DNA from: Paenibacillus sp. BIC5C1
Lineage (GTDB): Bacteria; Bacillota; Bacilli; Paenibacillales; Paenibacillaceae
Assembly: GCF_032399705.1 (NCBI RefSeq)
Contig: NZ_CP135922.1
Location: 5,394,001-5,458,000 of the forward strand
Reading direction: 5' to 3'
DNA: 64,000 nucleotides
Position numbers and translations under genes: made by a program. The notes below the pieces were generated by a model. The model was not told the origin of the DNA and ran no database searches. It worked only from the letters and a program-made list of their open reading frames with translations. Positions 3,884-58,010 of this stretch are shown here, piece by piece; the first letter of the stretch is position 1, and the number at the start of each line of letters is the position of its first letter.

Positions 3884-4052
3884 ATCATATCACCTCTCTC
3901 ATACTACAACGGATTTATATAGAATTTGTTGCTTAATTTCAAGAATACAAGTCATTCCGCTTTCGTAGTCTACTTAAAGTCAAATAAAATAGGCTTCCAT
4001 GTAAGCTGGCAGCCTTAATTACTTTCCTTTTCCGTTAGTTTGAATTACTGAA

Positions 4053-4619: not shown

Positions 4620-4677
4620 TCCCTCCAAATTTTATGAATCACGTATTTATTTCTAAAAAAACCTACTACTTATTTCA

Positions 4678-4911
4678 TTAGTCTCCCATTACTTCATAAT
4701 CATTCGGAATTAATTCATACAAGGCACGAACATCACAACCGACGGTATCGGCGATCGATATGGCAATTTTGAGTGGCATCACTCTTTTGTTTTCAATAAA
4801 GTCATAAACTCGTTCCGGTTTAAAAAGCAATTCCTTTGCCAGCCATTCCGCTGACTTTCCGGTTTCCTTCAATCGTTCATTCAGTAAGCAACGTCCTAGT
4901 TCAAATTTCAA
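4678..4911 (-). CDS. Cro/C1-type HTH transcriptional regulator
   Basis: 77-residue DNA-binding protein that consists essentially of one XRE helix-turn-helix: RLKETGKSAEWLAKEL is helix 1-2, FKPERVYDFIENKRVM the recognition part, and LKIAISIADTVGCDVRALYELI the closing helices. The start is TTG at 4911, with GGAGG 10 nt upstream. No effector domain is present, so it is probably a simple repressor or antirepressor of nearby genes. A Cro-like role for a lost mobile element is possible given the accessory character of this stretch. Confidence 0.8.
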   Translation of the reverse strand: MKFELGRCLLNERLKETGKSAEWLAKELLFKPERVYDFIENKRVMPLKIAISIADTVGCDVRALYELIPNDYEVMGD

Positions 4912-5175
4912 GAAACGATGACCTCCTTCATAAGATCACATTTAACCTTAAGCGTAGTCCATTAACAGCATTTCTATACAAAACCAAAAACTAACACAAA
5001 CTCCCAGTCGTAATGTTTTTAGTAGGTCAAGTGGATTTAGATAAGAGGAAAGGTATAGATCAAGGACTTCATTTTACAGTATATTTTTTCGATATATTAT
5101 GTACAGACTTTTATTTTAAATTTTAACTATTGAAGTTATGGGAGCTGTAAATTGATGTGTTGAGGGGGAAATGTA

Positions 5176-14345: not shown

Positions 14346-14636
14346 AATAACGCCGTTCCGTCCACAAACGTATGTCCGTTGCTTGACGCATAAGCGGCTA
14401 CAGGAGAATTCTCAATACCAAATATTTTCAGATTGCTCGGATTACTCGCAAATACACCTGAACCAAAAGTTGTTGCATCGCCTAACACAGTTATACTAGT
14501 CAAGCTGTTATTATAGAATGAACTACTGGCGACATTCGTTACGCTGGCTGGGATGACAAGTTTCGTAATGTGATTGGTGTCGAAAGCCCCGCCATTAATC
14601 GTCTTCAAATTTTCCGATAATTTAATTGATGTTAAA

Positions 14637-14643
14637 TTATTCA
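14637..14643. repeat. Target-site duplication, left copy
   Basis: TTATTCA next to the left end of the IS element; the same seven bases flank the right end at 16146-16152. Confidence 0.9.
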
Positions 14644-16145
14644 CTCAACTTTCGCACCTAGAATATTGAGTCAACCCCTTGTGGGCGTAAGAGAATTTAA
14701 ACATTACTGTTTCTCTTGACAAAAAAAACACCTTGCTTGTTTAGTATCATGGAAGTGCGACCAACCATGAACAAGAAAGGTGTGTAACCCTATGTTACAA
14801 CAACATTCCCTGTCTGACCAGTCTCGTTTTTCTAAACTTTTTGCTTCACTTCACATCGGGAAAGCTTTGCGGCATGCAGGGATTTCCAAATCGTTTGGTC
14901 TTTCGAGTTTAGCTATTTTTCGAATCGTGTTCTCCTTGGTTTTTGAAGGGAAGAACTGGTTTCGCCTGTTGGAGAGTAACCGCGGAGCCGATCTGCCAGG
15001 TAAAGATGTCATCTATCGATTCTTGAATCAATCTTCCTTTGCTTGGCGGCGATTTTTGCAGACATTAAGTCTCCAGATCGTACGCTATTTTGAAACGCTC
15101 ATTTCCTCCAAACGCGTACGTGTATTTATTGTGGATGATTCGGTGCTCAGCCGAAACCGGAGTAAAAAAGCAGAACTGCTGGCACGTGTGTTTGACCATT
15201 CTGCAGGCAGGTACATCAAAGGCTACACGATGCTCACACTCGGCTGGTCGGACGGTTTTAGCTTTGCACCGCTCGATTTTGTCATGCTGTCTTCCGCCAA
15301 ACTGGCCAATCGTTTTTGCGAAATGGCCTCCCATCTCTCGAAACGCAGCCATGGATACAAACGCCGAATAGAGTCTTTTTCTCGGAAGCCCGATGCCGTT
15401 GTGGGCTTGTTAGATCGGGCGTTAAAAGCCAGCTTCACGGCGGATTATGTTTTGATGGACAGCTGGTTTACGCAGGTTCCATTACTTCGCGAGCTCACAG
15501 CCAGAGGTCTGCCGGTGATTGGAATGATTAAAGAAATGAAGCAACGGTATCTCGTACAGGGACAGCGTATGACGCTAGGTGCTGTGTTTCAAAGCCTGCC
15601 TAAATCGAGTTCAAAAGACATCAAAGGCTCCGTGGTCGTACATACGTCGTGCGGTCTGCCCGTGAAGCTTGTTTTTGTGCGCAATCGGAATAAAAGACGG
15701 GAATGGCTTACCATTTTAAGTACAGACGTCACGCTGGATGCGGCAGAAATTGTACGAATTTACGGCATGCGTTGGAGTATTGAGACCTTTTTTAAAGTGA
15801 CCAAAAGCTATTTAAAACTAGGAACCGAATTTCAGGGCCGTTCCTTCGACCAACTGATTAGCCACACGACGGTTGTATTCAGCCGTTATTTAGCGATGGA
15901 ATACGAACGACGCGAAACCAATGATGACCGAACCCTGGGAGGACTCTTTTTCCTCTTTGCCGATGAGGTTCGGGATCTGGACTTTCAAACCGCGCTTCAG
16001 CAGCTGATGCGTTTATTTCTCGACATGTCTCAAGCGAAAACGAAAACGAACAAAATGGACGTTTTTTGTCAACTACAAGAATGGATCTCCGGTTTACCCA
16101 GCTATATCAAGGGTTTGTTTGGAGATTTAAGCTGCGAAAGTTGAG
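14644..16145 (+). mobile_element. Complete IS4-family insertion sequence, 1502 bp
   Basis: Bounded by terminal inverted repeats: left CTCAACTTTCGCACCT and right (reverse complement) CTCAACTTTCGCAGCT, 15 of 16 matching. It is flanked by a 7-bp direct duplication TTATTCA. It carries a single intact transposase with the IS4-family YREK signature. A 7-bp duplication and the transposase type fit the ISPepr1-like part of the IS4 family, which is an inference. The element lies opposite in orientation to the surface-protein gene it interrupts. A TTGACA at 14716-14721 followed by a weak -10 may drive the transposase. Confidence 0.93.
14792..16144 (+). CDS. IS4-family transposase, intact
   Basis: 450-residue DDE transposase that cuts and joins the ends of the surrounding element. 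Catalytic regions visible: first aspartate in VFIVDDSVLSRNRSKK (about residue 115), second in DYVLMDSWFT (about 220), and the C-terminal glutamate in the exact Y-x2-R-x3-E-x6-K signature YGMRWSIETFFKVTK (about 324-338). The ATG at 14792 is favoured over the in-frame GTG at 14780 because GAAAGG precedes it. The stop codon TGA (16142-16144) lies inside the right terminal inverted repeat, so the coding region fills the element. No frameshift or stop is present, which suggests recent arrival. Confidence 0.95.
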   Translation: MLQQHSLSDQSRFSKLFASLHIGKALRHAGISKSFGLSSLAIFRIVFSLVFEGKNWFRLLESNRGADLPGKDVIYRFLNQSSFAWRRFLQTLSLQIVRYFETLISSKRVRVFIVDDSVLSRNRSKKAELLARVFDHSAGRYIKGYTMLTLGWSDGFSFAPLDFVMLSSAKLANRFCEMASHLSKRSHGYKRRIESFSRKPDAVVGLLDRALKASFTADYVLMDSWFTQVPLLRELTARGLPVIGMIKEMKQRYLVQGQRMTLGAVFQSLPKSSSKDIKGSVVVHTSCGLPVKLVFVRNRNKRREWLTILSTDVTLDAAEIVRIYGMRWSIETFFKVTKSYLKLGTEFQGRSFDQLISHTTVVFSRYLAMEYERRETNDDRTLGGLFFLFADEVRDLDFQTALQQLMRLFLDMSQAKTKTNKMDVFCQLQEWISGLPSYIKGLFGDLSCES

Positions 16146-30989: not shown

Positions 30990-33900
30990 TTACACATGCA
31001 ACGCCAACAACAACTTATAGATCATTGCCGCGGCTTCCGCACGGGTCGTCATATTTCCTGCACGAACCGTATTGTCCGTATATCCGTTCACAATTTTGGC
31101 TTGAACGGCTGTATTGAGTGCTTCTTGTGCCCAAGCCGGCGTTTGCGTCGCATCAGTGAAGCTTGGTTTTACAGTATCTCCACTCGTTCCCGATTGTGCA
31201 TCTGCACTTAACTTCAATGCATTCGCCATCATCACAGCCATCTCGGCACGAGTGATCGTCTGATTAGGCTTGAACGTGTTGTCTCCATAGCCCTTCACGA
31301 TTCCGGCTTGCACAGCTGCGGCAATATCGCTCTTCGCCCAGTCTGGCAGACTGCCTTGGTCTGCGAACGTCGAATCCGACTGCACGGACTTCAAAGCCAA
31401 TGCCTTACTGATCAACGTAACAAACTCTGCCCGTGTAATCTTCTTGGATGGTTGGAATGTACCATCTGTGTAACCCTGGATAACGTCCATGCCAATCAAA
31501 CGATCTGCATAGTCGGATGCCCAGTGTCCGTTCAGATCGGACAGATTAGCAGCTGTGTAACTGGACACAACAAAGGTACCCAGATGATTCACATTAGCTG
31601 ATATTGTTCCTGCTGCATTCGTCTTGCCACCAATGAATACCCAGCTCTGACGGGCTTCATTATAATAGTAAATCGCTGGCTGTGTTCCTTGTGGCAGCTT
31701 GGAAGCATCATATTGCAGACTCAATGCTGCCTGATCGTTCAATGTCCGTCCTCCACTGCGAGTAATCTGGACCGCTTGCCCCAGTACATTCAGCGAAGCT
31801 GCATTCTGCAATTGGTCCTGGGATACTACGGACAGTTGCAAAGTATCTTTTTCCCCAATGGCTCCAGCCGGAGCGTTGAATTGCACGATATCTTTCAGAC
31901 CCGTTTGTACTGGCTGATTCGCTTCGACATCTACCTCCACTTCAGTAGTTGAATCTGATCCCGTATCCGGGTTGGTTGGTGTGGTTGGCACGGTAGGCGT
32001 TGTTGGCACGCTTGGTGTGCCTCCACCGGAATTCCCTCCAGCGTTGCCTCCATTACCTCCACTTGAACCCCCACTTCCATTGCCCGAACGGGCTTGTACA
32101 GTAACCGTACGTGTGACTTCCTGTGCAGCATTGCCGGCAATATCTTTCACGTTATAACGAATGGTGTAGAGCCCCGCCACTTGTGTGTTCACTGTGCCAT
32201 CAATCTGCACGGAACCACGGATACCTACATTATCGGTAGCCTGTGCCCCAGGCTCGTTATACATATCTCCCACGGTTAATGTCATCTGGCTGCTGCCTTG
32301 CAGGGTGATGACGGGAATCTCGCGGTCTATTTTAATGACCAGAGGTAAAGTATACGTTTGTTCCAAATCGTCTGTTGCTCGGAATAAAAGGTTGTGCTCT
32401 CCCGGCTCCGTTTCCTCCAGAGGAGTATTCTCCGTATATGGTTCGTACGTCTGCCCTCCATCACGGGATAACTCAATAGTCGCCGAAGTGGCTGGCGCGT
32501 AAACTGCGCTGGTTACGCTAACCGTTACGGACTGGTTTGTCCATGTATCCGTATGATACGGCTGGCCGTCAGCGGTGGTCATGTTGTCTTTTAACACCAA
32601 TACCTGATTATTTGTTCCTTCCACAATGACTGTGAACGTTCTGGTATCCGTTTCGCTGCCACGTTGTACCGTTGCTGTCAATTCCAGTCGCTCATTATTT
32701 TCAGGCTGTGTAAGAAGCTTACCCTGTGCATCCATCAATTCCGGGTTGGAGCTGGACCAGCTAATCGTGGCTCCATGTTTTCCTTCAACAGGAAGGGTAA
32801 GGTCGGAAGTGACCGCGTTGAGATCACCCAGATCAATCGCTTGAAGCGTATCCGTTACCGCCTGTGCATCACTGTAAGGTGTAGCACTCACGAAGATCGG
32901 ATTGGAGTAGAACCACAGATCGCGATAGTTCTGATCATTGATCTCGTTGAACCGAGTCTCTGCATCCGCTGTTGTGATCTTCGGATCAAGTTGCGGTTCA
33001 CCATCTACGGTCTCACCAGCAACATTCATGCCCAGATTTGTACCGCGCAGGCGATAATATTTATCCTGATCTGTAGCTTTGATCTTGTACGTGATGACAT
33101 TGTAACCTTCCGCATCGGTTGTCCAATCGTTGGACGTGAAGGTTGCCAGCACTTCGGTAGAGTCGTTAGTATCTTTGGAGTATGCGGCTGTGCCCTTCTC
33201 GGCCTTGCCCGTCACATCTCCCGCGATGAGATCGACATGATCGACCACCGGTACTTGTCCAGCAGACGTGCCACTGTTGATTGGTTTTTCATAGTTGTTG
33301 CTCGTGGTTGGACTCTTGAAACGGATTTTCAGTTCCACTTCGTCACCTTGGGTCACACCCAGGTCACCGCCCATTTCAGCCTGAGTACCCGCGCCGGAAG
33401 CCGTGAAGTCCAGTGCGTTGATCAGATCACCGAATACGGAAAATGATTTCCCCGAACGCAGTCCTTCCAGCACGGCTTGCATACCTGTACCATCAACCCA
33501 CGAATAGGTCTTCGCATATTCGCCCGGAAAATAACCGCTGGAATTCGTGCCAATCGTCTTAAAATGGTAATCCGAATTGCCATAGTTCCAGAAGTGACGC
33601 CCTTCTCCCAGCAATGCATCCCACAGACCGCCCACTTTGGCGACCATGTAATCCACACCGCCGTATGTACGGTATTTGTATCCATCATCTGCGGTCGGAT
33701 TGGCTACGTTGTAGCTCGTGTTATACCCACCGCGATCCGGTTCCATCTGGTTGCCAAGCATACCTTCGATACCAAAAACAACTTGTGGAGCCAGATCGTT
33801 GAACTCACGGAAGTCCGCGATGGTATATTTGTATTTGCCCCGTGAAGGGTGATTGATCATTGCATAACTCGTCGTTGGATACTTGGTTGCCAGCCAATTG

Positions 33901-34532
33901 ATAGCAGCCAGTGCATCCTGATGAGTTGTATAGGCACGTCCCCCCGTCAGATCCCAATTCGCTACATCAGCCGCATCGAAAAGATTTGCGTCCCGATTGG
34001 TAAAACGATACTCAAATTCGTTTGCAGCTTCCAGCGCTTCGGTCGAATTCGGCTCATCTGTGAGAATCCCTACACCAACGTGTTCATGTGTCGGCATGTC
34101 CCATTCGAAACCGGAGAAGATCGTTTTGCCTGCGTATTTGCCTGCTTCCTGAAGGGCCTTGATCTGTGGCACCTGATATTCGTTCATCCCTTTGGACATC
34201 GGAATCGATCCGCCTGGAATGTCTACTCCGTTGTGATCCCGCTTGGATAACCGCAAATGATCCGTAAGCGCAATCCAGTCCAGACCATACTTCGTCAGTC
34301 CCGCTTCGAGTACATTTTCCAGCGAATTCTGCGCATCATCGGACTCAAACGTATGTACGTGCAAATCTCCCGTTTGCCATGAACCTGTTGTCGAGCTGTT
34401 GGTTGGTGTGTTATCTCCTGCATCCGCATAGGTTACCGCAGCAGGAAAAGCTCCCATGACAAGGCCTGTAGCCAGTGGTATAAGCGTAAGCATAGCGAGC
34501 ATTTTCTTTCCTTTATTGTTGAACAAAATCAT
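30990..34532 (-). CDS. SLH-anchored exported PHP-domain (CehA-like) protein
   Basis: About 1180 residues. The ATG at 34532 is chosen because it starts a proper signal peptide (KMLAMLTLIPLATGLVMG, ending ADA) after GGTGGTGGG; a longer frame would put 35 residues in front. The N-terminal third is a PHP/CehA-type metal-dependent phosphoesterase-like domain with GDLHVHTFESDD (HxH), ALTDHL, FEWDMPTHEHVG, MINHPSRGKY and YGNSDYHF. Then come two or three Ig-like domains (GATISWSSSNPELMDAQGKL, a DUF5011-type TVGDMYNEPGAQATDNVG), a Gly/Ser/Pro/Thr linker and three C-terminal SLH domains (about 30993-31560). It should work as a wall-bound hydrolase; substrate unknown. Confidence 0.9.
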   Translation of the reverse strand: MILFNNKGKKMLAMLTLIPLATGLVMGAFPAAVTYADAGDNTPTNSSTTGSWQTGDLHVHTFESDDAQNSLENVLEAGLTKYGLDWIALTDHLRLSKRDHNGVDIPGGSIPMSKGMNEYQVPQIKALQEAGKYAGKTIFSGFEWDMPTHEHVGVGILTDEPNSTEALEAANEFEYRFTNRDANLFDAADVANWDLTGGRAYTTHQDALAAINWLATKYPTTSYAMINHPSRGKYKYTIADFREFNDLAPQVVFGIEGMLGNQMEPDRGGYNTSYNVANPTADDGYKYRTYGGVDYMVAKVGGLWDALLGEGRHFWNYGNSDYHFKTIGTNSSGYFPGEYAKTYSWVDGTGMQAVLEGLRSGKSFSVFGDLINALDFTASGAGTQAEMGGDLGVTQGDEVELKIRFKSPTTSNNYEKPINSGTSAGQVPVVDHVDLIAGDVTGKAEKGTAAYSKDTNDSTEVLATFTSNDWTTDAEGYNVITYKIKATDQDKYYRLRGTNLGMNVAGETVDGEPQLDPKITTADAETRFNEINDQNYRDLWFYSNPIFVSATPYSDAQAVTDTLQAIDLGDLNAVTSDLTLPVEGKHGATISWSSSNPELMDAQGKLLTQPENNERLELTATVQRGSETDTRTFTVIVEGTNNQVLVLKDNMTTADGQPYHTDTWTNQSVTVSVTSAVYAPATSATIELSRDGGQTYEPYTENTPLEETEPGEHNLLFRATDDLEQTYTLPLVIKIDREIPVITLQGSSQMTLTVGDMYNEPGAQATDNVGIRGSVQIDGTVNTQVAGLYTIRYNVKDIAGNAAQEVTRTVTVQARSGNGSGGSSGGNGGNAGGNSGGGTPSVPTTPTVPTTPTNPDTGSDSTTEVEVDVEANQPVQTGLKDIVQFNAPAGAIGEKDTLQLSVVSQDQLQNAASLNVLGQAVQITRSGGRTLNDQAALSLQYDASKLPQGTQPAIYYYNEARQSWVFIGGKTNAAGTISANVNHLGTFVVSSYTAANLSDLNGHWASDYADRLIGMDVIQGYTDGTFQPSKKITRAEFVTLISKALALKSVQSDSTFADQGSLPDWAKSDIAAAVQAGIVKGYGDNTFKPNQTITRAEMAVMMANALKLSADAQSGTSGDTVKPSFTDATQTPAWAQEALNTAVQAKIVNGYTDNTVRAGNMTTRAEAAAMIYKLLLALHV

Positions 34533-34566
34533 CCCACCACCGTTCTGAGTTGTTGTGTCGGGAGTA

Positions 34567-34595
34567 AATATAAGAAACTTTGAGGACTGGGTCAA
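34567..34595 (-). promoter_or_regulatory. Sigma-A promoter of the SLH/PHP gene
   Basis: Minus strand TTGACC (34590-34595), 17-bp spacer, TATATT (34567-34572), about 35 bp before the ATG. Confidence 0.65.
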
Positions 34596-35370
34596 CGCAA
34601 TGAAAGCGCCTATTAAAAATTTGACATATTCCTGCATTACTTTACATTTCGTTAACGATTTCTTTTGCTGTGTCTATGAAGATCATGCTCTATCATTCTC
34701 CATATTGAGGTGCTGAAATGTACTAGAGAAAGGTTGCAAGAGGGTGGAGAAAAATTCGAATTTTGTTCACCATTCAGGAAAGTTCCACCACAGCTAGTGG
34801 AGCATTAGGAAGAGAATTAGCATAACAAGGGTGATGAAGAGGTATATATGAAGGACTTTGTAAATATTTGAGGACGGAGCATCTGCCGAATATAGAAAAA
34901 AGAACCCCCGAATGCACAGGCGCAACGCGCCCTTAATCCGCAGGTACTCTGGATTTGACTGGGTTTTGATTTAGCTTTTACATGTTTACTTTTGTGAAGA
35001 GGAAGTTAACGGGTTGTGAAATGTGGGGCAAAATTGATCCTACCTAAATTCATGGATAACATCAATTCAAATAAAAATTTCATTCTATGTACTCCTTTTT
35101 TACATGGCCACCCAAATAAATTAGGACGACTTTTTTTATATTCTTGCTTCGTAACGCTTAGGTTTTCTCTATTTTTGACATGCCCTCCCCTTAAATCAAT
35201 TTCTAGTGAAACTGGTAGCTTGCCTACCCCTCCAAAATATTGTAAACCTAAAGCGATGCAGACTGATAATATCAGAAATATAGAATTCCAACAAATGGAT
35301 GTTGGTATATAAAAAAACTTCCTCGATTTCTAACGCTGCATGCAAGACATGTTTTCCACTACAAAAACAG
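34596..35370. other. Intergenic region without recognisable gene
   Basis: About 775 bp between the SLH/PHP gene promoter and the pst terminator. Only short unsupported frames occur on both strands; no RNA gene, repeat or mobile-element end was recognised. It may hold decayed sequence or an unrecognised small RNA. Confidence 0.5.
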
Positions 35371-40841: not shown

Positions 40842-41969
40842 TCAGACCTCAATCTGTTCATATAACTGTCTCGTGAGAAAGGAGGGTTGAATGTTAAGCT
40901 CAGTCAATCTTTCTTTGAGATTGCGATAGATCCGCAGCACATGGTCGTGTTTACCCATGTACAAGTACGCCTGCATGGCACGACGATAGGCTTCTTCTTC
41001 ATATGGCGATTGACTGATTGCACGTTCTGCTGCCTCTGCTGCTTTTCTGCCGTTACGTGAATCCAGATATTTCTCGGAAAGTTTCAGCTTAAGTTCCAGT
41101 GAAATTTGCTCCAGCTTATGACTTAGCTCCACTATCCATGGGTAATCCTCCTGAGGTAACAGTTCGTCCAGATACAAATGTAAGGTTTGCTCGATTAGAG
41201 ATATCGGCATATCTTCTTGCTCCATCCTGAACGAAATGTCCAGAAAATCATATACGTCTGCTCTGATTCGTTCCTTATCCAGGATATAGTGCTCACTTTT
41301 ATATCTCAACAAATGTTCAATACCAACGTTCCGCAAATTTTTTCGCAACAGGCTCACACAGGTGTGCAAATAAATTTTGGCTTTCTCATAAGGTTCATCC
41401 GGCCATAACTTTTCGATAATACGATCCCGGTGAACTGCACTTGTGGCAGGGTTATTCAGCAGCAAATACGCAAAAAGCTCCTTCTCTTTGGCTGTTCGCC
41501 ACATCATCGTCTTTCCATTTGTGATTGCAACACGGAATGTTCCAAGCAATTGGACAAACAACTTGTCCGTATTATCAGTCTTGACGACAACGTGATCCGT
41601 GGGTCTGTTCTTCTCCTTTGTCAATCGCTCAATGGTCCGTGACAAGCGCTCCATCTCGATGGGTTTGAGCAGGTAATCCAGCGCTTCATGCTCGAAAGCG
41701 GCCACAGCATACTGATCATAGGCAGTCGTGAACACGATCATGGCGTCCGGTTCCACTTCGTGTATGTTCGCTGCCAACTCCAATCCGCTCATTCCTGGCA
41801 TCTCAATATCCAGAAACCAGATATCCGGGTGAATGTTCCGAAGTGCCACAAGCGCATCAAAGCCATTAGCCGCACGCCCTGCGACGTGTACTTTACCTGT
41901 TCGAGTAAGGAACATTTCCAGCATATTCAAAGCATGCGGCTCGTCATCCACCAAATACGCTTGCATCAC
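40842..41969 (-). CDS. Response regulator with REC, winged HTH and BTAD domains
   Basis: 375 residues. Receiver domain 1-120 with acidic pocket (VDDEP), phospho-aspartate in DIWFLDIEMPGMSG (about 54), threonine (FTTAYD) and lysine (LLKPIEM). A SARP/OmpR-type winged HTH follows at about 145-220 (AKEKELFAYLLLNNP, HRDRIIEKLWPDEPYEKAK). A bacterial transcriptional activation (BTAD) TPR-like domain ends the protein (YPWIVELSHKLEQISLELK, AISQSPYEEEAYRRAMQAYL). SARP architecture fused to a receiver is typical of Paenibacillus-type regulators that sit next to 7TMR-DISM kinases. It starts 23 nt behind the kinase gene, its clear partner. Confidence 0.93.
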   Translation of the reverse strand: MMQAYLVDDEPHALNMLEMFLTRTGKVHVAGRAANGFDALVALRNIHPDIWFLDIEMPGMSGLELAANIHEVEPDAMIVFTTAYDQYAVAAFEHEALDYLLKPIEMERLSRTIERLTKEKNRPTDHVVVKTDNTDKLFVQLLGTFRVAITNGKTMMWRTAKEKELFAYLLLNNPATSAVHRDRIIEKLWPDEPYEKAKIYLHTCVSLLRKNLRNVGIEHLLRYKSEHYILDKERIRADVYDFLDISFRMEQEDMPISLIEQTLHLYLDELLPQEDYPWIVELSHKLEQISLELKLKLSEKYLDSRNGRKAAEAAERAISQSPYEEEAYRRAMQAYLYMGKHDHVLRIYRNLKERLTELNIQPSFLTRQLYEQIEV

Positions 41970-41992: not shown

Positions 41993-44900
41993 TTATTGGT
42001 ATGGGAATTCAATCGTTATCTTCGTCCCGTGACCTTGTTCACTCTGGATCACAGGTGCTTGTCCGTTCATGTGTTTCAGTCGCCTCTGTACATTTTGCAA
42101 GCCAATTCCCTGTTCGGCATGGCCTCTTTCCAGAATACTTGCGACCTGCTCAGGAGACATGCCGATCCCATCATCCTCAACCACCACTTGAACCCGATTT
42201 TCACATTTTCGGATGAATAACCGCACCGTTCCTCCATCAATCTTTTTCGACACCCCATGCCGGATAGCATTCTCCACCAGCGGTTCGATGAGGAGTGGCA
42301 TCACTTTACAGGAATTCAGTGATCTGTCCACATCCAACTCAACCTGAAGACGTGAACCGAAGCGCTCCTGCTCAATCTCCACATAGGCCTGAATCAACTC
42401 CATCTCCTTGCTGAGCGGAATCAACTCCTCCGAGTTATCCAGATGAAAAAGAATTCGCAAATAACGACTGAAGCTGCCTAACAGCTCTCCCGCTCTGGGC
42501 CCGTCTGTGAAACATAACGACATAATCGTTCCCAAGGCATTATACAGAAAATGCGGTTTGATCTGTGAACGAAGAAACGCCATTTCGTTGTTCGCAGCTT
42601 CCTTCACCAGTCGTTTCATACCGAGCAAGGTATGTACTCGGACCAGAATCTCTCCCGCATCCAGCGGACGTGTAATAAAATCGTTGCCTCCTGCCTTAAT
42701 GCATGCCTCAATATCCGCTGGTGTACTGCGCATGTTGATAAACAGAACCGGCAGCTCCACCTGGCTGAATTCCAGCCGAATCTGTTTACACACCTTATAA
42801 CCTGTAACCGCAGGCAGCATTGCATCCACGATGACGAGATCAGGCAGCTTACCGCTTGCAAGTAATGATTGCACCTCTATGTCGGAGTCCGCAAAGCTAA
42901 CCTGAAAACCTTCTGTAGAAAGTAATGTATTCAAGTGCTCCATGTCCACAAGATCGGTTGTTGCAATTAATATGGCTGCTGAAGCGTTGCTAGATGGCAA
43001 TTCCGATAAATCCTCTACGTACGTTTCCTGAGATACTGCAGTCTCAGTAACGCTCTCCATGCCAGCATTTTCTGCGGATGGAAGCTCGATCTGAATTGAT
43101 TCTGTTGCATCGTTGACCGTAAGCCGCCCCCCCATAATGCCGACAAGCTCTGCTGAAACAGACAAGCCTGCTGAACCGTTCTGCATACTCTGTAAATCAG
43201 CGCGGTCTTCTCTCCCCAATCGGGTAAACTGTTCCGTGTATGCCTCGAAACGAAGTATAATCCGCACTCGCTCTTGATGCCGCTCGCACTCGAATACCAG
43301 CTCCCTGTGACTATGCTGACCAATCATATGATAAACAAGGTTGTACAGCACTTGCAGCAGACGGCTCTCATCTGCCATAACATAGCGGGCCTCAAGCTCC
43401 AGCCTGCGTACCATAACGATTCCTTTTCCCGTAGCCAGAAACCCGAGCACCTCAGTGACCAAAGAAAGGCAGGATACCAGATCAACAGTGCCCACCGCAA
43501 TCTTCATATTGCCGTCTCTAAATCGCGACATATCGATCAGATCATTCACAAGATTGGACATCCGGTATGATGTATTGCGTATGAGTTGAAGCTTACTTCG
43601 AATTTCGGTCTCATTCGTGCGTCTCAACGACGTTCCTAGAAGAGAACGGGATAAATGAATGATGCTGTGAAGCGGAGAGTTCAGTTCATGCGATGTCAGC
43701 AGCAAAAACTCATCCTTTACCTTGTCCGATAATTGAAGCTGTTGCGTAAGCCGCTGCATTGCATCATAAGCTCCGACATATTGATAGATCAGGAGCACGG
43801 CGAAGACACTCAAAATTACTAATGTTGTACAATTAAGTAGAATCTGACTCACCGGATACCACGTTACGAGGATGCCAAGAACGTAATTTACAAGCATAAG
43901 CCAGATACATGTGATGAGAAGTTGTAACTGGGAACGACTCTTGCTCTCATATTTCTTCAGAACATAGTGATGCAGAATGACAGCAAAGGCTACAGCATAA
44001 GACAACAGGTTAACGATATACATGCCTTCCTGAATGGAGGAATACACTCGAAATGGAGATATCATGATCAGGGCGACGTATAGAGCAAGCAGAACACTTG
44101 GCAGCTGCAGCCATCTTCTGATCGTTTGCCCCAGCCCAGGGGCCAGTTTCCATGTAATCATGCTAACAATGACGGATACACCATATACCGCTGCATATTT
44201 CATTTTAAAGGCGAACTCAAAGGGAATTCCCGGCGCAAGCTGTAATAACAGACGCTCCCCATTCGTCACCACAATGACGGCAAAACCCAAGAAAAATAGC
44301 GCGTAAAGCAACTGAATGCGATCACGATGCAGACGAAGATAGAGATAGAAAAACAGCAAACCAAAGATGACTACAATCCCCATGATGAACAGCTCCAGTC
44401 CAGACTGAATCATCGTTCTTCTTTCAATCTGACTGGCATACCCCAGTTCAATCGAGTTGTAGATGCCACCGCTGCGAAAATCAAAATTAGCTACCTGTAA
44501 CACAATTTCGAGCTCTGCTTGTTTCGTATGAAAATAAATCGTATATGGCTCATTGCGTGGTATATAGGATGCCGCAGACGTGCTCGGAAGCCCTGATCGG
44601 CTCATCTGCTGCCCATCCAGATACATCGCATCCGCGAATCGAACATATCGTTTGGCAATTGCCAGCTGCTCCCCCTGAGGCAAATTCCGCACAATCAGGC
44701 GATAGGTCCCATATCCCTTCCCGCTCATTGGATAGCCTTGATTAATCACATCCTCATCCCAGTTCCCAGGCACTTGCATCATGATGGGCTTGATACGCGT
44801 TAGATGGATCTGCTGTGGTGAGAGCAGCTGCTCAGGATAGAATTCCCATTCTCCATCCAGTGGAATAATGGTATGGCTTGTCCATGAGAAGTCTGCCAAC

Positions 44901-45028
44901 TCCAGAGTCCCCTGCTTGGCAACAGGCGCCCCTCGTCCACCCCCGATCTGCAACACAACCACGAGTGCGAGCAGCATTGTCATTAATCCAACCCCTAACA
45001 AAAACCGATCCTTTCTGATGACAGTCAT
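41993..45028 (-). CDS. 7TMR-DISM hybrid sensor histidine kinase with two kinase modules
   Basis: About 1011 residues from the ATG at 45028. Order: signal/TM, extracellular 7TMR-DISM-type sensor (about 40-190), seven membrane helices (about 200-400), HisKA dimerisation with LLLTSHELNSPLHSIIHLS (H-box), a degenerate ATPase domain lacking clear N and G boxes (only SAGLSVSAELVGIMGGRL), receiver domain (PDLVIVDAMLPAVTGYKV phospho-aspartate), and a second LytS/YesM-type kinase part (SQIKPHFLYNALGTIMSLC; N-box PLVENAIRHG; GIGLQNVQRRLKHM). The first ATPase looks unable to bind ATP, so the C-terminal module should supply the phosphoryl group. Partner is the BTAD response regulator. Confidence 0.92.
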   Translation of the reverse strand: MTVIRKDRFLLGVGLMTMLLALVVVLQIGGGRGAPVAKQGTLELADFSWTSHTIIPLDGEWEFYPEQLLSPQQIHLTRIKPIMMQVPGNWDEDVINQGYPMSGKGYGTYRLIVRNLPQGEQLAIAKRYVRFADAMYLDGQQMSRSGLPSTSAASYIPRNEPYTIYFHTKQAELEIVLQVANFDFRSGGIYNSIELGYASQIERRTMIQSGLELFIMGIVVIFGLLFFYLYLRLHRDRIQLLYALFFLGFAVIVVTNGERLLLQLAPGIPFEFAFKMKYAAVYGVSVIVSMITWKLAPGLGQTIRRWLQLPSVLLALYVALIMISPFRVYSSIQEGMYIVNLLSYAVAFAVILHHYVLKKYESKSRSQLQLLITCIWLMLVNYVLGILVTWYPVSQILLNCTTLVILSVFAVLLIYQYVGAYDAMQRLTQQLQLSDKVKDEFLLLTSHELNSPLHSIIHLSRSLLGTSLRRTNETEIRSKLQLIRNTSYRMSNLVNDLIDMSRFRDGNMKIAVGTVDLVSCLSLVTEVLGFLATGKGIVMVRRLELEARYVMADESRLLQVLYNLVYHMIGQHSHRELVFECERHQERVRIILRFEAYTEQFTRLGREDRADLQSMQNGSAGLSVSAELVGIMGGRLTVNDATESIQIELPSAENAGMESVTETAVSQETYVEDLSELPSSNASAAILIATTDLVDMEHLNTLLSTEGFQVSFADSDIEVQSLLASGKLPDLVIVDAMLPAVTGYKVCKQIRLEFSQVELPVLFINMRSTPADIEACIKAGGNDFITRPLDAGEILVRVHTLLGMKRLVKEAANNEMAFLRSQIKPHFLYNALGTIMSLCFTDGPRAGELLGSFSRYLRILFHLDNSEELIPLSKEMELIQAYVEIEQERFGSRLQVELDVDRSLNSCKVMPLLIEPLVENAIRHGVSKKIDGGTVRLFIRKCENRVQVVVEDDGIGMSPEQVASILERGHAEQGIGLQNVQRRLKHMNGQAPVIQSEQGHGTKITIEFPYQ

Positions 45029-45126
45029 CTCTCCTTCTTCCGTAGCAGCTACCACTCAATATAGCGTTATTTTCGCACTCACGCTTGACCCTGTCCATCC
45101 TTTTCCCAGGCTACGATATAACGATG

Positions 45127-45150
45127 AAAAAAAGGCATCCGCAGATGCCT
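45127..45150 (-). terminator. Terminator after the cohesin/SLH gene
   Basis: AGGCATC and GATGCCT stem with a T-run on the minus strand. A second stem (TGATGCTGCT/AGCAGCATCA, 45164-45208) lies closer to the gene's stop codon. Confidence 0.7.
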
Positions 45151-45219
45151 CTGGAGTTCATCTGATGCTGCTCGTCCCTAGCGCAGGATAGGAACAAAGC
45201 AGCATCAGCAATAAACATT

Positions 45220-47592
45220 CTAATTTTGGGATGCAGCCTGGATTGCGCCGTGAGCCCAATGACCAACAGATACATCCTTCCACATGGATGTACTGGACAG
45301 ATCAGGTTCGATATGAACCAGACGATTCAGCAATGTAACGGCCTCTGCTCGTGTCACAGCATCGTTTGGACGGAATGCCCCATCTTGCGACACACTCATG
45401 ATGCCTGCTGCCAATACACGCTGAACTGCTTCGCGTGCCCAGTGCTGTGTAAGATCAGCAGCTTCGTTTGGCACAGCCGTTGTTTCTGCAGTTGCTTCCT
45501 GAGTTTTCAAAATCCGTTCAATAATGACAGCCATCTCGGCTCGTGTAATGGAACGCCCTGGCATGAAATCCCCGGCAGCATCGCCACGCATGTAACCTGC
45601 TGCAGTAGCCTTTGTAATCGCTTCGCGTGCCCATTCCGCAACCGGCATATCCCGATATGATCTATTGTGCGCAGCCTCGTCGCTGCCAGACGGCAGTATT
45701 CGAGATAATAAGGCAGCCATTTCAGCACGCTGAACCGCTTGATTCGGTCTGAACGTGCCGTCCGCAAATCCTTGAATGTAGGCTGATGACTGGCCCCCAT
45801 TCATCAAAATAATGGAAAATGTGCTGAACTTGGTGACTTCAAACTCAATTCCTGGTTGATCTGTTCCATTAAACTTAACGATTTTACCCTTAACGAGTTC
45901 CTTTGTCCCATCGCTATGTTCGATAAATACTTGCAGCTTGTCCAGTTCCTTCTGCGTCAGGTTCTTATCTCTGACCGGAAGCACAACCATCACTGGACGA
46001 CTGCTTATATTCGTCTCAATCGTCATTGGACGTCCTACCAAGCGGAAGTCGGCAGGATCTGTTGATGCTTTGATGATTAATGGATCTTTCTGGATACGCT
46101 GTTCCACCGCTTCACGCCCTGCGGCATCCTTAATCGGAACAAGGTGGAAGAATATATCGGAGCCCAGTCCCTTTAAAGAATTCGCCGGAAGTTGAAGGGA
46201 AGCGTTATCCGTTTCAATATACAGATTCATCTTCTCATCTGCCATCAGTGAAGTAGACTTGGCTGGCAGCTTCACATTCAGTTCGGATACCTCGTCCTTC
46301 TCATCCGGAATCATGATCCGGGCAATATTCGAACCGGCCTTCTTCAAGCTCTCAATCGCACGAGAAGTCTGCTCGGCTGTCAGATTCACCACATCCTTTT
46401 TACGTCCATCTGCCCCTGTTGTTCTTTCGATGATCGTTGTAGAAACAACTACATTTGCATTCCGTTCATTGGTCACATTTAGCGTAATCTTCTCGGAAGT
46501 GCTTGCAGACGGTGAGGTTGGCGTCGAACCACCGGATGAACTTCCTGAACCGGACGAACCCGGATTGGATGGTGTTGTTGGCGTTGTTGGCGTTGTTGGT
46601 GTTGTTGGCTCACCAACGACCGTGATATCGCCTGATATTGCCTGTTTATGCATTTCAATTCCATCGGTATCCGTCACCGTGAAGTGTTCTAGTAGCGTCT
46701 CGTTGACGAACTCCACCGGATACTCGCCTGCAACAGCATTGGAGGAAATCGTGAATTCAATTTTGAACAACGTCTGGTAGGTCTCGAACGCCGGGATAGG
46801 ACTCAGTCCTCCATTTTCATCACTCCAGCCCACGATAAGCGATCCTGTCTCATTATTCGCATGATGTCGTATTCCCGGACTGCCTGTAACATCAGTCACC
46901 TGTAAGGCTGCCGGGTTGAACTTCAGACGTACCCCGTAAGAGCCAATCGGTTGAGAAAGCGCCACCGTGTCGACAGTTAGCGTTACCTTGTCACCTGCTT
47001 TTCCTTCTTCTGATCCAATGTAGACAACAACACTCCCCACCGGTTTCACATCGGCCAGCACAGTAACTTGCCCATTTTCCCCAGTCACCTGAAACGGATC
47101 AAATTCCTCTACCAGTGCGCCCGCATGAAGAGCTACTGAACTTTGACCGATAGCCGCACTCTCCTTAATTTTAAAATGAAGGGAATACAGCGCCGTGGAT
47201 TCCTGAATGAAATTTTGCGTCGTCATTATCACTGATATATATCCTGGAGCAGACGTATCTTCAGTTAGGCTGACTCCCTGATAATTCTCATAAGCTTGGC
47301 GGTTTACAACCTTGTCCCCTTCAACGAGTTCAAGCACAGCCGAATCATAGGCAAAGGACAATTCAGAGTGATAAAAAGAAAATTCTGAGCCTTTTGAATC
47401 ATAGGATACAGGCACTTCGACGATGTCTCCTGGTTTACCAGATACTTCTCCGATATGAATTACAGGATCTACACTGGCATGTGCTTGAGGAAGCCACGAA
47501 AAGCTCATGGAAACCAAGAGCAGCACAGCCAGAAGCGCCTTCATGAATCGTTTGGATTTTACAGAAATGAAATGTCCCTTATTGTTTGGCAA
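45220..47592 (-). CDS. SLH-anchored protein with two cohesin-like domains
   Basis: About 790 residues. TTG at 47592 is preferred (GGGAG 8 nt upstream); a GTG at 47601 overlaps the site. Signal peptide FMKALLAVLLLVSMSFS...AHA. Cohesin-like domain 1 at about 35-180 (VIHIGEVSGKPGDIVEVPVS; ELSFAYDSAVLEL) and domain 2 at about 185-330 (VYIGSEEGKAGDKVTLTV; VRLKFNPAALQV). Both show the G-K-x-G-D start and (S/K)F-x-(Y/N)-x2-(A/V)LE/Q core of type I/II cohesins. A TTPTTPTTP/GSGS linker leads to a pre-SLH domain and three SLH domains with (T/R)RAE motifs. It would display dockerin partners on the cell wall; the gene just upstream encodes a dockerin. Confidence 0.88.
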   Translation of the reverse strand: MPNNKGHFISVKSKRFMKALLAVLLLVSMSFSWLPQAHASVDPVIHIGEVSGKPGDIVEVPVSYDSKGSEFSFYHSELSFAYDSAVLELVEGDKVVNRQAYENYQGVSLTEDTSAPGYISVIMTTQNFIQESTALYSLHFKIKESAAIGQSSVALHAGALVEEFDPFQVTGENGQVTVLADVKPVGSVVVYIGSEEGKAGDKVTLTVDTVALSQPIGSYGVRLKFNPAALQVTDVTGSPGIRHHANNETGSLIVGWSDENGGLSPIPAFETYQTLFKIEFTISSNAVAGEYPVEFVNETLLEHFTVTDTDGIEMHKQAISGDITVVGEPTTPTTPTTPTTPSNPGSSGSGSSSGGSTPTSPSASTSEKITLNVTNERNANVVVSTTIIERTTGADGRKKDVVNLTAEQTSRAIESLKKAGSNIARIMIPDEKDEVSELNVKLPAKSTSLMADEKMNLYIETDNASLQLPANSLKGLGSDIFFHLVPIKDAAGREAVEQRIQKDPLIIKASTDPADFRLVGRPMTIETNISSRPVMVVLPVRDKNLTQKELDKLQVFIEHSDGTKELVKGKIVKFNGTDQPGIEFEVTKFSTFSIILMNGGQSSAYIQGFADGTFRPNQAVQRAEMAALLSRILPSGSDEAAHNRSYRDMPVAEWAREAITKATAAGYMRGDAAGDFMPGRSITRAEMAVIIERILKTQEATAETTAVPNEAADLTQHWAREAVQRVLAAGIMSVSQDGAFRPNDAVTRAEAVTLLNRLVHIEPDLSSTSMWKDVSVGHWAHGAIQAASQN

Positions 47593-47607
47593 GATAGTCA
47601 CTCCCTT

Positions 47608-49107
47608 CTAATTATATGAATTAATCCCCAAGTAAACGCCCATAATCAGGGCTGAATCTTCGGCATCCAGTACACCATCATCATTCATGTCCAACGCTTC
47701 AATCTGACTCGGTGTTAACGTGATTAAACCTTTGATATATTTATTCACCAATAAGGCATCGGCAGGTGTAATCACACCGTCTCCATTCGCATCCCCTTTA
47801 ATACGCAGCATGATCGTTACCTCCACGCTATCCGAAAACACAGCTCCATTCTTGGCCTGCCAGCCGAACGTTGTCTTGATCCCTGTAAAAGCCGAAGAAG
47901 GAACGAAGGCCAATGTGTTCAACTCTGCGACAGGAACCACCTGATTCTTCACAACGTCTGTACCATTCAGTTGTAATTTACCGCTGTCAGGCAGGGAGGC
48001 GATGCGAATATCCGTCATAGACCGGTTCTCTGGGTCGGCATAGTTACTGGTAAAATCCGTAGATGTAAAGGATACCGGGAGCCCCTGTTTTACCGTTTTG
48101 TTAAACGTGCCTACAACAGGTTTGGGGGTGATATCCAGCGTTAGTCCCAAGATACGGGCAGAGCTGCCATCTGCACTGAATACAACGATTCGGTCTCTCG
48201 CCGTATCAGCCATATACAATTCGCCTTCCGGTCCGAAGACAATCTGATTAGTGAGGTCAATCGGATATGTCTCGTTTCCACTCGCCCACGTACTCAGGAC
48301 AGGACGTTCAGGAGATACAAAGCCCTCGTAGCCACTCTGCATGATCTGGTTCTCGCTCACAACGTATACACGTTTGTTTACTGGATCCAGTGTCAAGTCT
48401 CCGAGTTTATCTGTTGAATTCAGTATACTTGTTACGGGGTAAAGCATCGCTCCCTGCCCATTGGTATACCATACCTGATCTCCAGTTCCCTGGGTTGCGC
48501 CAGAGTATTCTGAGAATGCGCCACTCAAACCTCCCCATCCTTCGTGTCCCAAAGCGAAGTTGGCCAATGTGCCATATCTCGCTGGAGCATTATTCATTTC
48601 TCTATACACGTTGAAGAAAACGTACAGTCTTTCATAATCGCCCTGCTTATATCGAATTAAGTTTCGAATGTAAGGCTGCTTATCCTCATCTGGATGCGGA
48701 TACAACGAAAATTTACGCATAACGTCTATAGGCTGTCCGTTCACAGTACCATCCTGATTAAAAATATGTACTTTTGCGGCTGCTCCGGATTCAGCAGCGT
48801 AGATCAGCCCATCGTTCCCCATCGTAACCGCCGTCACCTGGTTGACCTCTATCGTCGATAGTACCTTGCCTTCCGGTGTAGACCGAATAACCCGATTGTT
48901 TCCAGTGTCTGCAATCAGCAACTCTGTTTCACCATTAGCCGTCTTATAGAACTCGATATCTGTAGGTCTGTTTAATGAAACGGGCTCTGTTGCAGCCAGA
49001 GCCGATGAAGCTGGAAAACCCACGCTTGTGAGTAATGTAATGACAAGAGCAAGCATACTCCATCGTGTTCTTTTGACTCTCGCACCCTTTTTAGTGTGTA
49101 AACTCAA
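47608..49107 (-). CDS. Exported beta-propeller protein with C-terminal dockerin
   Basis: 499 residues. TTG start at 49107 with AAGGAGGAGACC. Signal peptide ...ITLLTSVGFPASSALA. NHL/SMP-30-like six-bladed propeller at about 45-320 (TDIEFYKTANGETELLIADTG, LIYAAESG, EGELYMADTARDRIVVF), then an Ig-like domain with LPVSFTSTDFTSNYADPENR. The last 63 residues are a complete dockerin: DANGDGVITPADALLVNKYI and DMNDDGVLDAEDSALIMGVYL, the two Ca-binding F-hand loops with D-x-N-x-D-G pattern. The downstream gene, 15 bp away, encodes two cohesin-like domains on an SLH anchor. Confidence 0.9.
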   Translation of the reverse strand: MSLHTKKGARVKRTRWSMLALVITLLTSVGFPASSALAATEPVSLNRPTDIEFYKTANGETELLIADTGNNRVIRSTPEGKVLSTIEVNQVTAVTMGNDGLIYAAESGAAAKVHIFNQDGTVNGQPIDVMRKFSLYPHPDEDKQPYIRNLIRYKQGDYERLYVFFNVYREMNNAPARYGTLANFALGHEGWGGLSGAFSEYSGATQGTGDQVWYTNGQGAMLYPVTSILNSTDKLGDLTLDPVNKRVYVVSENQIMQSGYEGFVSPERPVLSTWASGNETYPIDLTNQIVFGPEGELYMADTARDRIVVFSADGSSARILGLTLDITPKPVVGTFNKTVKQGLPVSFTSTDFTSNYADPENRSMTDIRIASLPDSGKLQLNGTDVVKNQVVPVAELNTLAFVPSSAFTGIKTTFGWQAKNGAVFSDSVEVTIMLRIKGDANGDGVITPADALLVNKYIKGLITLTPSQIEALDMNDDGVLDAEDSALIMGVYLGINSYN

Positions 49108-49221: not shown

Positions 49222-49260
49222 AAAAAAAACGAAGGAATTAACGGATACACCCGTTAATCC
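49222..49260 (-). terminator. Terminator of the aldo/keto reductase gene
   Basis: GGATTAACGG and CCGTTAATTCC stem with an eight-T run on the minus strand, about 60 bp after the stop codon. Confidence 0.85.
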
Positions 49261-49319
49261 CTATCGCAATTGTTTCATTCATATAAAATTAGATATGCCA
49301 ATGCAACGGATCCTTCGTT

Positions 49320-55311: not shown

Positions 55312-57970
55312 CTACGGCTGCAACCCATGAACCTCAAATTCATAGATTCGGGCTGCGGTATCACCGCCCTGCGTAGGTTTCAGCACATTCAGCTTCACAT
55401 AACGAGCCTTGACCAGCGCAATTGCATCCGAGGTTTCGGCTGCGGCGTTCCCCTGTACATGAACTACATCTGACCAATTCACGCCATCAGCACTGACCTG
55501 GATCGAATAGTCGCTTGTATTAAAACCAGACCATTCCCCACCGCTCTCCGCATGTTTGATGACAAAACCGCTGATCTGATGTTCTTTGCCAAGATCAACT
55601 TGCAGCCAATGCGGCTGGTTACCCAGTGCGCACCACTTGCTGTTGTCCGTCATCTTGCCGTCAATTGCCTTTCCCGCACCTTCAGCAGGTCCACAGGCAT
55701 GGTCGGCAGTGGCCGTTTTGCCAAGTGCGACATTTTTGATCCCGGAAGCACCCTTGCTTACGGTGATCAAAGCTTGCTTCGTTACGGTATCCTGCCCCGA
55801 ACTGTTGGTAGCTGTAAGCGTCACATTGTACGTGCCTTCCTTGTCATACGTTACCACTGGATTTTGCTCCGTGCTGACAGCCGGACTGCCATTCTCAAAA
55901 GTCCAAGACCAGCCTTCCGTCACCTCGGAAGAGAGATCAGTGAAATGCACTTGCTGGCCAGGTGTGATAAGTGTTGCATCGGCCTTGAATCCTGCTTCCG
56001 GCTTCGGATACGCTGGCCACTGGATGGTCACGCTTGCAGCTTGGCCTCGCTCATATTTTGCATTCACTGCCACGACTTTCAGTATAGTTGCCTGTTCCGC
56101 GTTGATTCTCTTCATCTCAGGCACATAGAAGACGTTATTGGTGGTCGCACCCACCCAAGTCTCTTTGCCGTCGGGCAGAACACGGTAAATCTCATACTGC
56201 TGAACTTCCTCATCCAGTGCTTTCCACTGCAATCTGGCATCACCGTATATACCCCCGCGGAAATCGGATTGGATGACATTCAATTCTTGAACTGCTTCAA
56301 GTTGCTTCACTGGATTAGAATTGTTCCGAATGGATATCTGACCAATATGGATGTCATAATCCGATATGATTTCCTTGCTGTCAAAATGCAGAGACAATGC
56401 CACAATCCGCTTTCCTTTGTAAGGCGTCAGATTCAAGATGTCCGTCGTCCACCCCGATGCCTTTTTGTCTTTTACATCCAGAAAGACGAACTGGTCAGGA
56501 CGGTCTGCAAAAGCCAGGCCAACCTTCATGCTCGGCTTGTTCTGCGTTTTGTACGTGATCGACAGCTTGGTAGCTGGCTCAATCTTCAGATCGGTTTGAT
56601 ACAGCTTCAGATGGGTGGCATTCGCCGAACTTAGCGTACCCGATACCTTGAGGGAACTGCCCCCATAGTAGGCATCCGACCAATCCAGGGACGGCGTAAG
56701 TGCGTTACCTTTACTCTCTGTCAGCCAGCGCCATGTCGGAAGTACGTCCTGCAAACTGCGATTATTCCATCCAGTCTCCCGCACCTGCGTGCCATCCCAC
56801 ATAGAATTTCTCGCCACTGCCCGTGTTGAAGTTGGTCGTGAATGGCAGTTGGTCCACCGGCGATGATTCAACCACATTGTTCGCAATCCCTTTCCAGGCC
56901 TGGCTTGTCGCCGTATTTGCCGGGTTGCCGTTCTGCCCTACCCAGAATTTATTTTCACGATCAAAGAAATCGGTCATGCTGTCCGCGCTGTTGTACGACC
57001 AATCCGGTCGATAAATGCCGAGGGAAGTTACAGCCGGTTTCCCCTCAGGAAACAGCAAATTCCATTTCAGACTGGTATCGTATCCTTTTGCTTCCACATC
57101 AATACCTGCGAACAGTTCAAATGGCGATCTGCCCAGGCTTTTGGCTTTGGCCGCAGAACTGCCAAGATCATTCCACCAGAAATTCAGGAACATGCTGTCC
57201 GATACCTTGTTCCCGTTATCCTGAAGGAACATCGCATTCCGGTCCGTCAGCGCATTTTGCCATGAAATATTGCCTTCCTTCGTCATGGAATCATACCAGA
57301 TGATCTCCATACCCGCGGGCTTATGATCTTGAAGATAACGGAGGAATGTCTTCATTAACTGTGCGTCAGTGGCTGTTCCACCTTCAGTCTCCTGGTTGAT
57401 AAACCAACCGTCAAAACCGTAATACTCTGCCACCTCTATCAGTTTATCCGCAGCCGGGAAGGAGCCGTCGCTGTTCTGCTGAAGCATTTGCTTCACCCAC
57501 TCATATTTTCCACCGTATACGGATGGCGGGAAGAACACTGTGCCCATGATTGGCACTCCGTTCCGGTGTGCCGCATCAATCGTGTCAGCGCTTGGCGGCA
57601 CAATAATACCTTCACCCGCCGAGCCACCCCAATATACGAGCTTGTCGACATACTGCCAGTAAGAGAACGTATTTGCAGAAAATGTATCCGATCCCTGTGA
57701 TGGAACGCCGCTGGTTCCCTGGTTCAGTGCAGACAAGGCCATCACTTTGGGATCTTTCGTTGCGTTCGGGTTAACTGCCTCTCCTGTGAATCGGCTTTGG
57801 AGTGGAATAGTGCTCCGGTTGAAGGCCGCATCCGGGTCGGAAGCTGGATTCCAGTTAAGCAATTGTTCAGGCAGCCAATAGGATGAATAAGGTTGCTTCG
57901 CCAAGGCCGCTGAGGAAAGAACAGCGCATACCAATACTACAAATATGAGACTCGCACCAAGTTTTTTCAT
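55312..57970 (-). pseudogene. GH85 endo-beta-N-acetylglucosaminidase, split by an apparent 1-nt frameshift
   Basis: A secreted enzyme that cuts the chitobiose core of N-glycans. Start ATG 57970 with GGAGGG; signal peptide LGASLIFVVLVCAVLSSAALA. The GH85 domain reads SSYWLPEQLLNWNPASDPDA, KLVYWGGSAGEGIIVPPSAD, and YYGFDGWFINQETEGG (the N-x-E catalytic pair). At 56796-56798 an extra C in a CCC run (GGG on the coding strand) shifts the frame: the first part ends with 402 residues at 56762, and homology continues in the next frame from DGTQVRETGWNNRS to 55312. The second part has GH85 C-terminal beta-domains, a PKD domain (WSWTFENGSPAV) and an F5/8-type C (discoidin) domain. Either a real lesion or a sequencing error. 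Confidence 0.88.
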
Positions 57971-58010
57971 GCCATACCCTCCAATCCATTTTTGGCAATC
58001 CAATCAGGGT

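Follow-up and report, generated by a model that had tools for sequence, protein, structure and literature searches.

A propeller–dockerin gene and a putative wall-anchor gene lie side by side

Paenibacillus sp. BIC5C1 has a single-contig genome of 7.08 Mb, from which we analyzed a window of 64,000 bp (bases 5394001-5458000). Within it, two adjacent minus-strand genes, here called D and C, encode a β-propeller protein that ends in a dockerin and a putative cell-wall anchor with two cohesins, a linker and three surface layer homology (SLH) repeats. A first-pass annotation had placed both open reading frames (ORFs) at these positions, 15 bp apart, and had read a complete dockerin with two calcium loops in D, and two cohesins, a Thr/Pro linker and three SLH domains in C. 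Profile searches and inspection of the translations agree with this gene model.

The dockerin of D scores 44.7 bits with Dockerin_1 (PF00404) against a cut-off of 22.9 over residues 437-488, and both loops, DANGDGVITPAD and DMNDDGVLDAED, can be read in the translation. With two calcium-loop/helix repeats and a score over the cut-off it classifies as a type I dockerin, and 20 sequences of the PDB match it at E <= 0.01, mostly named dockerins or cellulosomal proteins. C matches PF00963 in two stretches (70.3 bits, cut-off 24.1) and PF00395 in three (91.5 bits), thus combining cohesins and SLH repeats in one chain as an SLH-anchoring scaffoldin does. When the dockerin and cohesin 1 were modeled as one fused chain, the cohesin was predicted with a local distance difference test score (pLDDT) mostly >90, and Foldseek aligned cohesin 1, the only cohesin in the model, to CaCohA2 (6kgc_A) at 1.8e-12 with a template modeling (TM) score of 0.81 by target. 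All 50 listed matches of the model are cohesin or scaffoldin structures by title. We take the C cohesins to be of type I, a label borrowed from their nearest relatives and in part presumed.

The likely start of gene C is the TTG at 47592, which has AAGGGAG ahead of it and lies 15 bp past the stop of D, confirming the gap; the ORF list has an in-frame GTG at 47601 as start instead. A purine-rich, ribosome-binding-like stretch precedes each gene, and each product carries an N-terminal signal peptide, as judged by eye from the translations.

Across the genome, PF00963 matched only the gene C ORF, in two stretches, in a search run at E <= 0.001 and no laxer threshold, while PF00404 found the gene D ORF and no second dockerin even at E <= 10. 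Because no further dockerin or cohesin ORF turned up, D and C appear to be a self-contained pair as far as the two profiles reach. A conventional cellulosome is excluded, as the sole dockerin protein found has no glycosidase domain. SLH repeats are common in this genome (102 matches), and a single gene matches PF04230, which bears indirectly on the wall location of the SLH protein C.

The propeller of D is predicted to be of NHL type, the predicted fold showing six blades. Of the "NHL/SMP-30-like" label of the first-pass annotation, the NHL part holds on the predicted fold, but neither family reaches its Pfam cut-off (NHL, 18.4 bits vs 20.0; SGL, the SMP-30/gluconolactonase family, 15.7 vs 26.3). 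Four relatives (P0014, P0018, P0019 and P0023) carry PF01436, and a contig titled Paenibacillus taichungensis NC1 encodes a D protein that is 99% identical. Between propeller and dockerin lies a cadherin-like region with a PF17803 score of 13.9 bits (cut-off 25.1) and a pLDDT of about 46-75 per block.

Table 1 Features of the D-C locus and the adjoining regulatory genes, in window coordinates
Feature	Position	Strand	Basis or remark
Gene D: secreted propeller, cadherin-like and dockerin protein	47608..49107	-	499 aa, TTG start
D signal peptide, residues 1-39	48991..49107	-	by eye and alignment of 12 orthologues
D six-bladed NHL-type β-propeller (predicted), residues 40-326	48130..48990	-	
D hypervariable blades 3-4, residues 122-235	48403..48744	-	blade numbers from predicted-fold strands
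D cadherin-like region, residues 327-434	47806..48129	-	weak, below Pfam cut-off
D dockerin, two calcium-loop motifs, residues 436-494	47626..47802	-	PF00404
Gene C: cohesin-cohesin-linker-SLH anchor	45220..47592	-	TTG start
C cohesin 1	47059..47460	-	PF00963, PDB sequence matches, Foldseek
C cohesin 2	46618..47025	-	PF00963; separate cohesin clade
C Thr/Pro and Gly/Ser linker	46498..46605	-	sequence
C spacer region	45772..46497	-	no Pfam family over cut-off
C three SLH repeats (45715-45780, 45529-45639, 45340-45456)	45340..45780	-	PF00395
Terminator-like site upstream of D	49233..49262	-	
Terminator-like site between C and kinase	45131..45152	-	
Hybrid sensor kinase (HisKA, REC, His_kinase, HATPase)	41993..45055	-	7TMR-DISM below cut-off
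BTAD response regulator beside kinase	40842..41969	-	

The pair recurs in relatives

We surveyed 75 genomes of the genus and found a cohesin match in 39 and a dockerin match in 41. The dockerin ORF is the upstream partner of a neighboring cohesin ORF in 44 of 66 cases; six share an ORF with a cohesin and 16 stand apart, including one, in genome G017, that closes a D-C-D set as its last gene and follows the cohesin ORF at 4 kb. Unpaired cohesin ORFs amount to 14 of 64. Chance adjacency is ruled out by the orientation of the pairs under a 3-kb rule, 44 being dockerin-first and none cohesin-first. D-C is a real, recurrent anchor–client pair, and the earlier description of it as an anchor with its client gains from this recurrence as well as from the joint exchange described below. 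Among the matches listed for Paenibacillaceae as a whole, at least 213 of 394 genomes have a dockerin match and at least 254 a cohesin match.

The window-type pair, which we call class A, was collected from 12 loci. In class B (L100, L070) the client combines DUF6242 repeats, presumably propeller-like, with an X2 domain, an InlB-type repeat and a dockerin. Class C (L064, L080) has a short client with a mid-chain dockerin and a partner with one cohesin. Propeller-like clients thus recur across loci, and at L088 NHL repeats (six stretches) occur with four cohesins; Pfam finds no propeller in the clients of class C, L089 or L163. In a quick tree, the first cohesins of classes A and B form one clade and the second cohesins another (Shimodaira–Hasegawa-like approximate likelihood ratio test, SH-aLRT, 99 each), with the class C cohesins grouping with the second. 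These two clades point to one ancestral two-cohesin anchor behind the pairs.

The survey also turned up dockerins and cohesins in other settings. At L107 (genome G037, 4018-5238) and L108 (G016, 4333-5043), a dockerin ORF stands alone and also matches an RHS repeat; both are possible extra clients. L110 (G048) encodes a subtilase of ~1,320 aa with a C-terminal dockerin, and seven more genus genomes hold unpaired dockerin ORFs whose frames are about as long (1322-1339), a resemblance in length only; in six of the eight genomes no cohesin match was found. At L113 (G005, 5145-5738), the ORF adjoining a cohesin locus holds half a dockerin match, so that the dockerin gene there looks broken. The pair at the class C locus L064 is preceded by an amidohydrolase gene and followed by genes for a MacB-type transporter and an OmpR-type regulator, and ORF lengths suggest that many class C loci share these neighbors.

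Dockerin and cohesins are exchanged together

Identity and Mantel figures were computed from 11 class A orthologues, L101 being dropped as a near copy of L063. Within D, conservation is highest in the dockerin, with a mean identity of 89% and a median ratio of nonsynonymous to synonymous substitution rates (dN/dS) of 0.07, and its calcium-loop positions are kept in the 11 orthologues save for an N-to-T change at one position, seen in three of them. The two cohesins of C average 70 and 72% identity and the spacer (C residues 365-600) 90%. Blades 3-4 of the propeller have a mean pairwise identity of 40% and a dN/dS of 0.33, a figure for which 24 of 55 pairs are saturated. Five of their positions are invariant in 12 orthologues, and at 70% identity they fall into 10 types among 24 non-redundant D proteins (seven of 31 dropped as near copies, P0020-P0023 not included).

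Dockerin distances follow those of the cohesins (Mantel r 0.75 with cohesin 1, 0.74 with cohesin 2) and hardly those of the rest of D (r 0.04-0.23, the cadherin-like region giving 0.04). Single locus pairs display the same pattern. L098 and L071 share dockerin and cohesins and differ in the client; the switch falls at the 20-codon block with which the dockerin opens, identity going from 73% up to 100%. Between L083 and L104 it rises from 67% to 92% at the same place. In L083 and L091 the client and the blocks C335-C372 match while the dockerin and both cohesins differ, the SLH part being 83% identical. In L078 and L104, blades 1-4 are 100% identical at the nucleotide level, compared with 86% for the cadherin-like region and 85% for cohesin 1. 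In these alignments, dockerin and both cohesins are exchanged as a cassette. Whichever cause lies behind this, the sequence distances indicate that the dockerin moved along with the cohesins rather than with the remainder of D.

A kinase and a BTAD regulator accompany the pair

Downstream of C lie genes for a hybrid sensor kinase and a BTAD response regulator. That this pair "follows immediately", as first annotated, is correct in that it adjoins C, but a terminator-like site intervenes, so that kinase and regulator may be transcribed separately from D-C. Nine such sites were found in the region, against 3.6 expected from shuffles. The kinase pair is more important than the first-pass annotation implied. 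Kinase and BTAD regulator are located downstream of the pair in 11 of the 12 class A loci. We hand-picked, not at random, a further 20 loci, 19 for having dockerin and cohesin matches side by side and L173 as a recheck of the class A exception. A full-length-alignable kinase and a related regulator are found directly upstream of D in 14 of those 19. Class C pairs stand outside this count. The three linked kinases that were scanned have the same Pfam architecture.

Fourteen further BTAD loci were fetched, of which 11 yielded a kinase passing the length filter. In the kinase tree, which has long branches and from which L117 was dropped as a near copy of the window, one origin of all 21 dockerin-linked kinases is rejected (approximately unbiased, AU, test, p 2e-50), while one origin of 20, with L170 set aside, is not (p 0.09). 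Under the tree model the linkage would therefore have arisen or moved at least twice, and we claim no more. At L183, L188 and L190, kinase/BTAD pairs of the same family occur close to further ORFs with BLAST matches to protein C, probably owing to SLH repeats, suggesting that this regulator family has a wider link to SLH surface proteins.

Other surface proteins in the window

Two further large SLH surface proteins are encoded on the minus strand, at 10451-14644 (FIVAR and LRR) and 30990-34637 (Ig-like). The ORF at 55312-56886 (-), ~6 kb from the D-C pair, holds a C-terminal domain of a glycoside hydrolase family 85 (GH85) endohexosaminidase together with PKD and F5/8 type C domains. The first-pass annotation had seen no cellulase or classical scaffoldin around the pair, which agrees with a sole dockerin protein lacking a glycosidase domain but has to be qualified for this GH85 gene. 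The GH85 ORF, which our Pfam scan of the region covered, overlaps ORF 56762-58003 (-) in another frame, and a frameshift within a single gene may account for the two.

A propeller mounted on the cell wall?

We consider it probable that D and C form an operon in which D is mounted on wall-held C by docking, its propeller binds a ligand and the kinase pair regulates the whole. D and C would be produced from one two-gene operon and secreted separately. The SLH repeats would hold C on the cell wall, and the calcium-dependent dockerin of D likely binds one of the C cohesins, which would place one or two propeller proteins on the cell surface. The variable blades 3-4 would most likely bind an outside ligand, in adhesion or recognition rather than catalysis, and the hybrid kinase with its BTAD regulator would probably set the timing of D-C production.

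Several observations limit this reading. DNA contiguity is a simpler cause that could explain the joint exchange of dockerin and cohesins. The dockerin also correlates with the C signal peptide that lies between them (r 0.62; the SLH part less, 0.45), and without L091 its correlations fall to 0.51 (cohesin 1) and 0.55 (cohesin 2). The change into the dockerin between L083 and L091 is gradual, identities in successive 20-codon blocks being 92, 80, 80, 70 and 43%. The fused dockerin–cohesin 1 model has a predicted TM score (pTM) of 0.58, a dockerin pLDDT of about 46-84 and no interface score, and speaks neither for nor against docking. As for regulation, genome G036 has a class A locus without the kinase pair (L082, rechecked in L173), five of the 19 other chosen loci (L158, L159, L161, L163, L172) are also without it, and of the three BTAD matches in the BIC5C1 genome the other two have no relative of D or C beside them. 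The BTAD profile moreover misses at least one linked regulator: the regulator at L156 escapes it at E 0.01, yet is 35% identical to the window regulator over 294 residues, so BTAD counts are low estimates.

In another reading, the domains resembling cohesins and dockerins would be remnants or make different contacts, D would be secreted and stay free, and both gene order and joint exchange would come from plain operon inheritance and DNA linkage. Linkage could explain the exchange here, and the fused model is neutral. This reading does not account well for a dockerin that is the most conserved part of a protein with a varying client, that largely keeps its calcium-loop positions and at whose start identity jumps in L098/L071 and L083/L104; we regard it as improbable. 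Somewhat less improbable, though still unlikely, is that C is a general surface anchor whose two cohesins each take a partner of their own, of which D would just be the one encoded in the operon, others coming from elsewhere in the genome or from neighboring cells. The first and second cohesins of classes A and B fall into separate clades and therefore may differ in specificity, the class A genomes G016 and G037 hold extra class A-like dockerins with an RHS repeat match on other contigs, and two D-C-D loci exist (L160, L171), but in BIC5C1 itself no second dockerin turned up even at E <= 10. Of very low probability is a surface-displayed enzyme of the lactonase or SMP-30 kind. The lactonase-like reaction that the first-pass annotation offered as one option is not supported, given the sub-cut-off SGL score and the hypervariability of blades 3-4; adhesion or recognition fits the propeller better.

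If wall mounting by docking is correct, cohesin–dockerin docking would be a common means by which soil bacteria fix single proteins other than glycosidases to their walls, and not mainly a tool of cellulose degraders. Of most interest to us is that recognition blades and docking cassette are exchanged separately, along with the linkage to regulators. A broader and more tentative possibility, which we hold to be conceivable but doubtful, is a modular surface-recognition system of Paenibacillaceae, made of the kinase/regulator pair, a propeller with swappable blades and an SLH anchor with an exchangeable, matched dockerin–cohesin set. Its modules would recombine separately, and the kinase pair would control, and perhaps read, propeller binding. 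A lineage could then change recognition without changing the mounting, or the reverse. L083/L091 and L098/L071 are natural experiments on dockerin–cohesin specificity, the hypervariable blades make the propeller ligand a testable question, and small D-C pairs might find use as separate plug-and-socket sets in displaying proteins on surfaces.

Comparison with known systems

In the open-licence literature we found no paper that joins dockerin and NHL repeat, a BTAD regulator and histidine kinase with Paenibacillus and S-layer, dockerin/cohesin with a two-component system, S-layer and propeller, or dockerin/cohesin with non-cellulosomal and Bacillota. Cohesin–dockerin docking and SLH-anchored cohesins in Paenibacillus are already known; judged on that literature, the one-client, non-glycosidase, regulator-linked form looks, tentatively, new. 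Peer and colleagues reportedly described non-cellulosomal cohesin and dockerin modules in 2009, and PDB entry 2xdh (Archaeoglobus fulgidus) is titled a non-cellulosomal cohesin. D-C likewise represents a use outside cellulose degradation, but differs in being a defined anchor–client operon for which there are orthologues, evidence of exchange and a link to regulators.

As far as excerpts of the source describe them, Acetivibrio-type SLH-anchoring scaffoldins (PMC11557425) also have cohesins and SLH repeats in one chain and a dockerin on the client, whereas D-C has a client without a glycosidase domain, one dockerin ORF and no primary scaffoldin that we could find. The same excerpts report that Paenibacillus guangzhouensis encodes 35 cohesin proteins, among them 28 adaptors that carry both modules in a single chain, often alongside a GH, and five SLH anchors (PMC11557425). 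It is thus, like BIC5C1, a Paenibacillus with SLH-anchoring cohesin proteins, but contrasts 28 adaptors out of 35 with the one dockerin and one cohesin protein of BIC5C1. According to the excerpted criteria, that survey required a multi-cohesin gene and a dockerin–glycosidase gene, and because of the latter a genome like that of BIC5C1 would lie outside it (PMC11557425). The P. curdlanolyticus complex, in the part of the report available, includes an S1 protein without cohesin or dockerin (PMC6823336). Regulation finds a parallel in XydS/R of Clostridium cellulolyticum, which the available part of that report presents as a two-component system that likewise bears on a dockerin-gene cluster (PMC3572039); its clients are hemicellulases, unlike D, and the likeness is drawn without comparing kinase or regulator types.

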